A stretch of DNA of 64,000 nucleotides, taken from Thermovirga lienii DSM 17291. Lineage in GTDB: Bacteria > Synergistota > Synergistia > Synergistales > Thermovirgaceae. The number at the start of each line of letters is the position of its first letter. Positions within the stretch are counted from its first letter, which is position 1. The notes under the pieces were generated by a model, which was not told the origin of the DNA, made no database searches, and was given only the letters and a program-made list of their open reading frames with translations. Shown piece by piece: positions 35,787 to 43,846 of this stretch. Location: contig CP003096.1 of the NCBI GenBank assembly GCA_000233775.1, forward strand, positions 1,390,501 to 1,454,500, given 5' to 3'. The position numbers were made by a program, and so were the translations under genes.

Positions 35787-35806
35787 TTATACCTTTAGGG
35801 GTATAA
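35787..35806 (+). promoter_or_regulatory. CsoR/CstR-like palindromic operator in a promoter
   Basis: The arms TTATACC and GGTATAA are separated by TTTAGG, so the centre reads ACC...GGGGT. This resembles operators of the CsoR/CstR repressor family (copper or sulfane-sulfur sensing). A TTGACT at 35782-35787 with AATAAT 17 bp later, or TATAAT 14 bp later, would place the palindrome within the promoter. No CsoR-family gene is seen in this window. Confidence 0.6.
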
Positions 35807-35845: not shown

Positions 35846-37288
35846 GTGGAAACAACCAAAAAAGTAGAAACTCTGATAATAGGAGGAGGACCTGGAGGAA
35901 GGACTGCTTATGCTGCCTTACATCGCTTGGGCAAAAAAAAATCAATGCTAGTAATGAACCTGGAACCAACCGTAGTCTGCAGCCTTCCATACGGAGTGGG
36001 AAGACGACTGATACCCGGAGGACCGGAAGATGCAGTTGTAGATATTTCAAAATCTCCAAGGCTGCCAAGGGATATAGTGCAAAACACAATAATCGGTAGT
36101 GTAATATCCATTAACACGGAGGAAAAAGTTGCTACTATCAAGACGCAAGCATCTGAGTATATGTACGTATCCTACGATAACGTCATACTAGCTACAGGTG
36201 CTGTACCATGGATCCCACCAATAGAGGGCGTCCTTATGTCTTGTGACCATCGAAGTGATAACGAAGACTTTTCTGGAGAAGTGGTATGCGTTGGGAATCA
36301 ATTTGCCCCTAAAGCATCCTTAGCCAAAGGCATTTATGTAATGAGAACTGCCAATGATGCAAGGGCATTAGATAAGTTTGCCCAAGAGGCTCAAAGCGCA
36401 ATCATTATAGGAAGTGGAGCTATTGGCCTTGAAGTTGCGGAGGCTCTAGCAGACCGAGGCCTAACAGTAACTATAATTGAAGCTTTACCTCACCTCACAC
36501 CTGCCCTGGATAAAGATATGGCAAAGTTGCTAGAGAAAAGGATAGAAGAAAGAGGAATAAAGGTTATAACAGAGAAACAAGCCACATCATATCATAACGG
36601 TTCTTTAACCTTGAACGACGGAACAACGCTTGAGGCTTCTGGAGTTGTTTTTGCCACAGGAGTAAGACCAGATACTAGGTTGGCAGCAAAGATAGGTATA
36701 AAAGTAGAAAAAGGCATAGTGGTAAACAAATATATGCAAACTAACATCCCCAATATTTATGCCATCGGAGACGCAACCCAAATAGAAAATACCGTCAGCA
36801 GAAAAACATATTTACCTCTAATAGGCACTTTAGCCATGAGGCAAGCCCTAATAGCTGCTCTCAATATAGCCGGCAAACCCACAGAGCACCCACCTGCAAC
36901 TTCTTGGGGCGTATCTACCATCTTTGACCTTCACTGGGGAAGTGTAGGCCTAACGGAGGAATTAGCAGCATCTTTAGGCATGAAAGCGGCAGCCATAGTT
37001 ATGCCAGTAAGGACAAGAGAACCCGCTATGCCAGAAGGCAAGAGCGGACAATGGAAAATCATCTTCTCCACTGAGCCCGCAGATTCCATCAAGAAGGGAC
37101 AAATCCTCGGTTTTCAAATAATCCTTGATGGAGAAAGCCCTTTATCCACAGTGGAAAGATTCCTAGACATGATTGTAAGACACGAAACCATACCAGAGCT
37201 TATAGGGCATTTCCATATCCACAGCCCCTCTCATAATCCACCTGATGATCCCTACATGGGAATTATGTTTCGTTATGGAATAAATTGA
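35846..37288 (+). CDS. CoA-disulfide-reductase-like flavoprotein
   Basis: This is a 480-aa FAD/NAD(P)-dependent pyridine nucleotide-disulfide oxidoreductase. The FAD motif IIGGGPGGRTA lies at residues 11-21, and the single redox cysteine Cys45 in VCSLPYG corresponds to Cys43 of CoA disulfide reductase. The NAD motif IIIGSGAIGLEVAEAL lies near residue 187, and NIYAIGDAT near 305. The C-terminal dimerisation domain ends with an unusual His-rich HFHIHSPSHNPPDDPYMG, in place of the usual YAPPxxSAKDP-like motif. Likely substrates are CoA disulfide, persulfides or polysulfide. GTG start after GAGGGGG. It is probably controlled by the palindrome just upstream. Confidence 0.8.
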   Translation: METTKKVETLIIGGGPGGRTAYAALHRLGKKKSMLVMNLEPTVVCSLPYGVGRRLIPGGPEDAVVDISKSPRLPRDIVQNTIIGSVISINTEEKVATIKTQASEYMYVSYDNVILATGAVPWIPPIEGVLMSCDHRSDNEDFSGEVVCVGNQFAPKASLAKGIYVMRTANDARALDKFAQEAQSAIIIGSGAIGLEVAEALADRGLTVTIIEALPHLTPALDKDMAKLLEKRIEERGIKVITEKQATSYHNGSLTLNDGTTLEASGVVFATGVRPDTRLAAKIGIKVEKGIVVNKYMQTNIPNIYAIGDATQIENTVSRKTYLPLIGTLAMRQALIAALNIAGKPTEHPPATSWGVSTIFDLHWGSVGLTEELAASLGMKAAAIVMPVRTREPAMPEGKSGQWKIIFSTEPADSIKKGQILGFQIILDGESPLSTVERFLDMIVRHETIPELIGHFHIHSPSHNPPDDPYMGIMFRYGIN

Positions 37289-39893: not shown

Positions 39894-40094
39894 CTAACCT
39901 TTTATGCTTGCTGGATAACCAGCATCCTCCAAGATCTCCATTACTTCCTCTGGCTTGTCGGTTGACACCTTTACTAACTTCTCCGATAGCAAAACCTCTA
40001 CGTCCCCGTAGCCAGCATCACTGAGGACCTGTGTAATGCGCCTAACGCAGTGCTCGCAGGACATGTCTGGAACAACAAAAACCGTCTTAGTCAT
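39894..40094 (-). CDS. copZ: Copper chaperone CopZ-like (HMA domain)
   Basis: This 66-aa heavy-metal-associated domain shuttles Cu(I) to the ATPase. The metal site is MSCEHC (Cys13, Cys16) in VVPDMSCEHCVRRITQVL. The start overlaps the copA stop by 8 bp (ATGACTAA), so both are made together. The GMTCxxC glycine is replaced by Asp (PDMSC). Confidence 0.88.
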   Translation of the reverse strand: MTKTVFVVPDMSCEHCVRRITQVLSDAGYGDVEVLLSEKLVKVSTDKPEEVMEILEDAGYPASIKG

Positions 40095-42294: not shown

Positions 42295-42343
42295 CTAAGA
42301 CACCCTCCACAAAAGCTTGAGAATAAGCCTATAATCAAGTATG

Positions 42344-42372
42344 ATGATACCATGAATGGTATTATCACTCAA
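42344..42372 (-). promoter_or_regulatory. copA promoter overlapped by a palindromic operator
   Basis: On the minus strand TTGAGT (42367-42372) and TATCAT (42344-42349) have a 17-bp spacer. A perfect palindrome with arms ATACCAT and ATGGTAT and a 2-base centre (42347-42362) covers the -10 box and most of the spacer, a layout for repressor occlusion. It lies 37 bp upstream of the divergent ArsF-like gene and may control both directions. The regulator is not in the window. Confidence 0.7.
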
Positions 42373-42398
42373 ATTAGATAAGAATAGGTGATGACTTC

Positions 42399-42887
42399 AT
42401 GAACATAAAAAGATCAACGGGTTTGGTTTTAGTTTTATTCGCTCTGTTCTGCATGTTTAATGCAGGAATAGACTTATACAACTCTCTCTACAATGGAAGT
42501 GATACCACCACAAAAATGAGTTCCTCCTTTGATCATCTGCAAGAAAATATTGGCCCTTCGGCAAAAATATATTTCTTTTACGGCAATGGCAAATGTCCCA
42601 CCTGCGATGTAATAAAGGCATCAGCCATTGAAGCCATCAACGAAATCAAAAAAACATGCCCCAACAACTTAAACATTGTATGGGAAGAAATCAACATTGA
42701 AGAGGGCGAAAACGCAAAGTATATCACTCAATACGGCCTTTTTTCGACAACTGTGGTCCTTCAAAATCCGTCAGACCTGCAAGACTGGAGGCGCCTCGAC
42801 GATGTATGGGAACTTGCGTCGAACAGAGAACATTTAAAAAAATACATAAAAAATCAAATTATTGAGTTCTTAGGAGGGTGTTCATAA
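42399..42887 (+). CDS. ArsF-family thioredoxin-like protein
   Basis: This 162-aa protein has an N-terminal membrane anchor or signal (VLVLFALFCMFNAGIDLY) and a thioredoxin-like domain. The redox pair Cys66-Cys69 lies in FFYGNGKCPTCDVIKASAIEAI, the pattern of proteins named after Geobacter ArsF. The C-terminus ends with a lone Cys (GGCS). It overlaps the next gene by one base. In this context it could pass electrons to or from the CcdA-like partner. Arsenic involvement is not shown by the sequence, because no arsR or arsB is present. Confidence 0.75.
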   Translation: MNIKRSTGLVLVLFALFCMFNAGIDLYNSLYNGSDTTTKMSSSFDHLQENIGPSAKIYFFYGNGKCPTCDVIKASAIEAINEIKKTCPNNLNIVWEEINIEEGENAKYITQYGLFSTTVVLQNPSDLQDWRRLDDVWELASNREHLKKYIKNQIIEFLGGCS

Positions 42888-43573
42888 TGGAGGGCATAGT
42901 TCAGGTATTTTCTGCTTTGTGGCTAGGTATATTGGCATCCATAAGCCCCTGCCCTTTTGCCTCCAATCTTGCCGCCTTCTCGTTCATTGAGAAAGATTGC
43001 ACTAACCACAGAGAAGTTCTAAAGGCAGGTCTATCCTATACCCTAGGCAGGATAGCGACCTTCACTTTTTTGGGCTTCCTGATATCCCAAGGTACTTCTC
43101 ATATATCCATAATCTCCATGGCTTTACAAAAACATGGGAACATGTTTCTAGGTCCGATTCTGGTAATCGTAGGGGTTTTTGTTCTTGACCTCCTTGAAAT
43201 TCCTCCCTTGAAGATCACCTCTAGGATGCGAGCGTACAAATTCTATGTTGGAGGGCCAAAAAGCGCTTTCCTAATGGGCATTTTGTTTGCTTTGGCTTTG
43301 TGTCCTGTATCGGCAGCTTTATTCTTTGGCGGGTTGGTACCCTTAGCAGTGAGAGCGAAAAGTTATCTATTACTTCCGGCCACATTCGGTCTAGGAAGTG
43401 CTTTGCCAGTGAGCATAATGGCCCTCTCTTTGTCCATAGGTATATCGGCCTTCATAAAATCAGAGCAACAACTTCAGAGAATCCAAACCTGGGCAAAAAC
43501 GGTTACAGGATCTGCGATGATAATCATAGGCCTTTATTTTTGCTTTGCTTACAATCTAAAGATCATAACGTGA
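42887..43573 (+). CDS. ArsG/CcdA-like membrane protein
   Basis: This 228-aa integral membrane protein has about six helices. The first helix pair contains ISPCPFASNLAAFSF, and the fourth region has ALCPVSAALFFGG. These paired Pro-Cys-Pro and Cys-Pro sites resemble the DsbD/CcdA family, which carries electrons across the membrane, and the ArsG branch, described as an efflux permease. ATG 42887 is preceded by GGAGGG and overlaps the ArsF-like stop. It is probably one functional unit with the thioredoxin-like partner. Confidence 0.78.
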   Translation: MEGIVQVFSALWLGILASISPCPFASNLAAFSFIEKDCTNHREVLKAGLSYTLGRIATFTFLGFLISQGTSHISIISMALQKHGNMFLGPILVIVGVFVLDLLEIPPLKITSRMRAYKFYVGGPKSAFLMGILFALALCPVSAALFFGGLVPLAVRAKSYLLLPATFGLGSALPVSIMALSLSIGISAFIKSEQQLQRIQTWAKTVTGSAMIIIGLYFCFAYNLKIIT

Positions 43574-43675
43574 ATACGAACGAACTTACTTACGAAGAAA
43601 ATTTTTATTATAATATCTACGGTTAGCTTAGCTGTTTAGTTAAACACCACTGAGGACAATGGAGGTGTTGGATCC

Positions 43676-43846
43676 ATGAAAAAATTCAGATGTCTCCATT
43701 GCGGTCACGAGTTTGAAGTAGAAAGTGTATCGACAGGTCTCAAATGCCCCAAGTGCTTGAACAGGTTTGTAGAACTCGTGGAGGGGGAACCACTCAAAGG
43801 AAAACCTTGGGGCAGTAAAAGCTTCAGCGTTCCAAAAATAAAATAA
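43676..43846 (+). CDS. Small zinc-ribbon protein (56 aa)
   Basis: This small gene starts at ATG 43676 after GGAGG and ends TAA 43846. The product begins MKKFRCLHCGHEFEV and has a second pair in LKCPKCLNRFVEL, so four cysteines (CxxC...CxxC) form a zinc ribbon or rubredoxin-like metal site. The C-terminus is short and basic. It lies 102 bp after the ArsG-like gene with no terminator between, and a strong terminator follows. The function is unknown. Confidence 0.75.
   Translation: MKKFRCLHCGHEFEVESVSTGLKCPKCLNRFVELVEGEPLKGKPWGSKSFSVPKIK

Follow-up and report, generated by a model that had tools for sequence, protein, structure and literature searches.

Why do two genes that automatic annotation calls an aromatic arsenical nitroreductase and an efflux permease lie head to head with a copper pump in Thermovirga lienii DSM 17291? 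The window analysed here is the whole stretch of 64,000 nucleotides (G000:C1:1390501-1454500, G000 being this genome, with a chromosome of 1,967,774 bp in an assembly of 1,999,646 bp); a paper search for Thermovirga and copper returned nothing on copper control in Thermovirga. The arrangement itself is real: gene calls and family profiles agree with the original prediction of copA-copZ on the minus strand, divergent from an ArsF-like and an ArsG-like gene on the plus strand (Table 1), across a gap of 104 bp (42295-42398). The arsF stop codon and the arsG start overlap by one base. CopA combines the family score of a Cu(I) P1B-type ATPase with the motifs CPC (405-407), YN in TM7 (692) and M-x-x-SS in TM8 (714), and it also has a GMTC-x-x-C metal-binding domain.

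Table 1. Features of the copA/arsF locus and of the second operator-like site, in window coordinates.
Feature	Position	Strand	Basis or remark
Second operator-like site ATACCTTTAGGGGTAT in TTGACT/TATAAT-type promoter	35789-35804	+	41 bp before next gene; conserved in sister species G001
FAD/NAD(P) CoA-disulfide-reductase-like oxidoreductase, candidate co-regulated	35846-37288	+	TIGR03385 196 bits, below cut-off 579; site upstream in G000 and G001
copZ-like HMA copper chaperone, MxCxxC	39894-40094	-	ORF; Pfam HMA 36.6 bits
copA, Cu(I) P1B-type ATPase, 735 aa	40087-42294	-	TIGR01511 510.9 bits vs 397
copA promoter-like site TTGAGT-17-TATCAT, palindrome in spacer and -10	42344-42372	-	Consensus match only
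Operator-like palindrome ATACCAT-GA-ATGGTAT; family consensus TATACC-N6-GGTATA	42347-42362		10/10 family genomes, same gap
ArsF-like membrane-anchored thioredoxin-fold protein, Cys66-Pro-Thr-Cys69	42399-42887	+	NF040494 86.9 bits, cut-off 60
ArsG-like DsbD_2/CcdA-type membrane protein, Cys22 + Cys139	42887-43573	+	NF040495 240.4 bits, cut-off 200
56-aa zinc ribbon	43676-43846	+	ORF; 102 bp downstream of arsG

The two plus-strand proteins probably form a thiol relay, a reading well supported by motif: a thioredoxin fold with a CxxC pair on one side and two invariant membrane cysteines on the other, which is the biochemistry that had been predicted. In ArsF, both cysteines of the CxxC motif are invariant in an alignment of 47 sequences, and the structural model (pLDDT 88.5) has a single N-terminal membrane helix (3-35) and then a thioredoxin fold whose matches among solved structures are thioredoxin, PDI and Ost6 domains, so that the anchored fold described earlier is borne out; PDB sequence searches with the ArsF and ArsG profiles gave no match. 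The cis-proline position of thioredoxin appears from sequence and model to be Thr117 in ArsF, and this proline is seemingly absent across the ArsF family, which might permit metal binding at the CxxC. In ArsG, Cys22 and Cys139 are invariant in an alignment of 54 sequences and lie within predicted hydrophobic segments. Its first description as a six-helix CcdA-like protein with CP motifs stands for the match to Pfam PF13386 DsbD_2 (43.8 bits, cut-off 24.9) and for the invariant membrane cysteine pair followed by Pro, features shared with the CcdA and DsbD conduits; the six helices are not proven by the AlphaFold model because that model is weak (pLDDT 69), and the predicted helix count and numbering come from the sequence and the Pfam match. 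Unlike those conduits, the protein carries the NCBI name ArsG rather than CcdA and has as its partner an ArsF-type anchored thioredoxin fold. Two ArsG proteins of family f8 (L030:4950-5582 and L031:9839-10462) have SLCT in place of SPCP, so that both cysteines are kept while the flanking prolines of the first motif are lost.

The zinc ribbon, which had been counted as the third gene of the plus-strand unit, probably does not belong to the relay. It occurs in 34 of 41 relatives, many of them without the ArsF/ArsG pair, where it often follows a DUF554 gene, and the 102-bp gap upstream of it holds a TATAAT-like box (by eye); what looked like a trio is a pair with, in all probability, an independent neighbour gene that occurs phylum-wide. 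DUF554, a membrane protein, and the zinc ribbon after it are a pair that recurs in the Synergistota (L142, L141, L138, L143, L145, L210), and the order arsF-arsG-DUF554-zinc ribbon at one of these loci (L210, in G134) suggests that DUF554 was lost in the family of T. lienii.

What might join the two divergent units is the palindrome between them. It was predicted as a perfect 7+2+7 repeat over the copA -10 and spacer, and this is precisely where it lies. In the window, ATACC-N6-GGTAT occurs twice against 0.03 expected from shuffles; over the whole T. lienii genome the 10-letter pattern by itself shows no enrichment, with 5 places and 9 for the reversed control. The evidence for an operator is conservation. 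We compared the ten genomes of the family, reading gene order by tblastn with marker proteins: the copA/arsF gap is only 35% identical on average, and ATACC-N6-GGTAT is its most conserved part. The 18-mer TATACC-N6-GGTATA has 15 places in the ten genomes against 2 for its reversed control, 8 of the 15 falling in the copA/arsF gap, and it is found solely there in G003, G005, G006, G007, G008 and G009. Promoter-like hexamers 17-18 bp apart flank the element in both directions in G004, G008, G009, G002, G005 and G007; the clear promoter-like case is on the copA side in T. lienii and on the arsF side in G003 and G006, and in T. lienii and its sister species G001 the best arsF-side promoter match excludes the site. 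A putative switch shared by copA and arsF-arsG, as proposed at the outset, is thus well supported by its presence in all ten family genomes and by two-way flanking hexamers in at least six.

We hypothesize that an ArsF/ArsG thiol electron relay was recruited into a copper/thiol-stress regulon, where it would work like the Scs (suppressor of copper sensitivity) or CcdA systems, and we give this reading an even chance. With Cys22 and Cys139, ArsG would pass reducing equivalents over the inner membrane, presumably outwards to ArsF. The latter, anchored outside, could by means of its CxxC maintain extracytoplasmic thiols in reduced form, or else reduce or handle a soft metal on that side. A Synergistota-specific branch of the pair would have come to lie divergently from copA-copZ in the family of T. 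lienii, where one operator (TATACC-N6-GGTATA) in overlapping promoters would repress both sides. Since the element also appears to control a few other metal- or thiol-related genes, we propose a joint induction of copper export, chaperone and relay, with copper or a related stress on thiols as the trigger. That copper is the signal is plausible, given copA-copZ and a cysteine-rich peptide described below. ScsB, the membrane component of the Scs system, is DsbD-like but large and has periplasmic domains; the ArsG of the window is short, of the DsbD_2 type, and has another partner. The resemblance to ScsB/ScsC, a membrane carrier with an extracytoplasmic thioredoxin-like partner, is a likeness of function and an analogy only; Scs, which combines a membrane electron carrier with such a partner, is associated with copper tolerance (PMC5524982). 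In a heat-loving anaerobe, the locus would thus provide a test case for the coupling of copper export to the repair of extracytoplasmic thiols, together with a candidate operator and regulator for the Synergistota.

The element recurs at other places, which we collected by following individual matches. It precedes a 43-aa cysteine-rich peptide (MGCCNKPKE...) in G002, G003 and G007 (G006 has a near match, G005 a decayed one), and a nitroreductase-like gene, named by eye from its sequence, in G002 and G003; the FAD-disulfide oxidoreductase of Table 1 is a third case, and the element therefore looks like the operator of a regulon. The peptide (L228:9437-9568, L242, L235, L236), whose promoter contains the element in three genomes of the family, is a candidate metallothionein-like peptide. 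Two sites (G004:C79 and G002:C30:42024) fall within coding ORFs and were judged to be chance matches, and a site upstream of arsF in G015 and G032 (TACCTTTAGGGGGTA) was set aside, as it overlaps a likely ribosome-binding site. A bolder proposal, which we offer tentatively and think rather less likely to be right than wrong, is that TATACC-N6-GGTATA defines a previously undescribed regulon of this Synergistota family, probably read by a CsoR-family sensor without the copper-ligand His, that would co-induce the copper pump and chaperone, the ArsF/ArsG relay, the cysteine-rich peptide and disulfide or nitro reductases, a copper-thiol defence using a module otherwise met in arsenic operons.

Which protein would read the element? 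One CsoR-family gene was found in T. lienii and one in eight of the ten family genomes. Aligned to 4adz and 4m1p, the T. lienii protein keeps both cysteines and has Tyr for the copper-ligand His (Cys-Tyr-Cys); it is the only CsoR-family protein found there, and none with the Cys-His-Cys set of copper ligands turned up. Among the Synergistota proteins read, those of the family have Tyr at this position and those of other families Tyr, Ser or Asn; the G036 protein alone has His. Because Tyr replaces a copper ligand, the protein may sense thiol chemistry rather than copper, as CstR does (PMC9918477, PMC5016687). The CsoR-like gene of T. lienii (L158, G000:C1:1242536-1242865) is divergent from rpsB and has a shorter TATACCCTGTAT-like repeat in its promoter.

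These residues lend weight to an alternative in which the locus belongs to a reactive-sulfur or general thiol-stress regulon: a CstR-type persulfide or thiol sensor would repress the genes, sulfane sulfur or oxidised thiols would induce copA and ArsFG, with copper as a secondary signal. CstR-type proteins do regulate sulfur genes by cysteine chemistry (PMC9918477, PMC10318464), and a CoA-disulfide-reductase-like enzyme carries the site. Yet copA, copZ and the cysteine-rich peptide point to metal, and versions of the element with an N7 spacer accompany copA in other families, before it in G038 and before a csoR beside it in G036, there with a His-bearing CsoR; we therefore consider this alternative unlikely, if worth keeping in mind. 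Recruitment of the relay into a copper/thiol-stress regulon, which we prefer, has the same residue against it, the only CsoR-like protein found being one without the copper-ligand His, and in this the locus also differs from CsoR-regulated copper operons. The element resembles CsoR-family copper operators in being a TAC/GTA inverted repeat over a copZA-type promoter, and differs from them in its short G-tracts and in having eight bases between TAC and GTA instead of the nine of the Streptomyces CsoR consensus ATATACCCCTNAGGGGTATAT (PMC3902906). Other regulators fit less well: CopY/BlaI is absent from nine of the ten family genomes, T. lienii included, and MerR/CueR seems unlikely from spacing, the promoter-like spacers being 16-18 bp and not 19-20.

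Across the family the genes usually run copZ-copA and, divergently, arsF-arsG, followed by the zinc ribbon and as a rule by CstA; on the far side of copZ, most genomes have 2-oxoacid:ferredoxin oxidoreductase genes. Nine of the ten genomes have copA divergent from the pair, and the tenth (G003) lacks copA only. Conserved adjacency alone is weak evidence, because the family neighbourhood is syntenic over several genes. One could suppose that the divergent units share DNA and not function, ArsFG being a housekeeping extracytoplasmic reductant beside which copA-copZ was inserted. In family f7 the pair indeed diverges from 2-oxoacid:ferredoxin oxidoreductase genes, while cop genes and an operator of this kind are missing, and family f8 keeps the pair with copZ only; together with two loci of family f5, where the pair and the zinc ribbon occur without copA, and with G003, these copies of the relay without copA count against the copper/thiol-stress reading as well. 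What makes the mere sharing of DNA improbable is that the family operator lies inside promoter-like sequence of both directions, as the most conserved part of the gap, and that it persists in G003 after copA was lost. That genome (L029:8900-12961) is a natural deletion, in which copA has disappeared from between the operator and copZ while arsFG, copZ and the operator remain.

There remains the arsenic connection implied by the annotation. The ArsEFG proteins, which Chen, Zhang and Rosen reportedly linked in 2019 to roxarsone and nitarsone resistance, correspond to NCBIfam NF040494, NF040495 and TIGR00412. Our pair resembles them in passing the curated cut-offs for ArsF and ArsG, in the order arsF-arsG and in its conserved cysteines; it is unlike them in lacking arsE, arsR, permease and ACR3 at the locus, in belonging to a Synergistota-specific clade, and in having copA-copZ divergent from it and a different operator. 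An ArsG alignment search gave 346 loci, the best 80 of which, ranked by likeness to the window's ArsG, include 72 from outside the Synergistota; because of that ranking, proportions among them cannot be taken as a census. In 68 of these 72 the pair has one or more of ArsR, ArsE, ArsM, ACR3 and an SO_0444-type permease nearby, and ArsE is directly upstream of ArsF in 39 of them; none of the 72 has the copA arrangement, and a metal ATPase of any kind occurs in just one. An annotated Prevotella plasmid record likewise places relatives of the pair among arsenic-type genes, and a single-protein ArsF scan of the genome contigs gave no match. The P-type ATPase beside ArsF at a Nitrospirae locus (L056) was rejected as a parallel to copA, since its neighbours are ACR3 and ArsR genes and it shares only 34% identity with the window's CopA. 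Whether homologues of the pair lie mostly beside arsenic genes and away from copA, a question raised with the original prediction, is thus answered differently at two scales: they do so outside the phylum and do not in the family of T. lienii.

Within the Synergistota, copies in arsenic operons were found in G017, G026 and G058 and as second copies in G032 and G134, each of which holds both types of pair. In a tree of 61 ArsG rows, all 17 Synergistota copies that lie outside arsenic operons, the window's among them, form one group (support 97/93), and the five arsenic-linked Synergistota copies fall apart from it; the bootstrap of this tree is not fully settled, and two of the arsenic-linked rows have long branches. 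Because the relay elsewhere sits in arsenic-resistance operons, its place here looks like a transfer into a regulon for metal or thiol stress; to judge from its cysteines, its clade of its own and an operator linked to copA, it may rather be a general thiol relay, borrowed by different operons for different soft-metal stresses. A surviving role in arsenic or nitroaromatic/organoarsenical detoxification, with the place by copA merely historical, would accord with the NCBI names, both proteins passing those cut-offs, and with the arsenic-type company that the pair keeps outside the phylum and on the plasmid, and is made improbable by the separate clade, by the two genomes with both types, by an operator unlike the ATATGCGCATAT-like sequence that precedes arsR-led copies, and by the lack of ArsE or any other arsenic gene at the locus while the genome's arsenic operons do without ArsFG. 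No arsenic regulator or efflux gene was found next to the pair in its neighbourhood, as had been noted at first, and the two ArsE-type genes of T. lienii lie at 351 kb and 1851 kb: one operon is arsR-arsE-permease (350.8-352.7 kb), the other an arsR-arsE fusion with an arsC-like gene and ACR3 (1849-1852 kb). The fusion in the latter (L161, G000:C1:1851071-1851685) encodes a 204-aa ArsR-ArsE protein.
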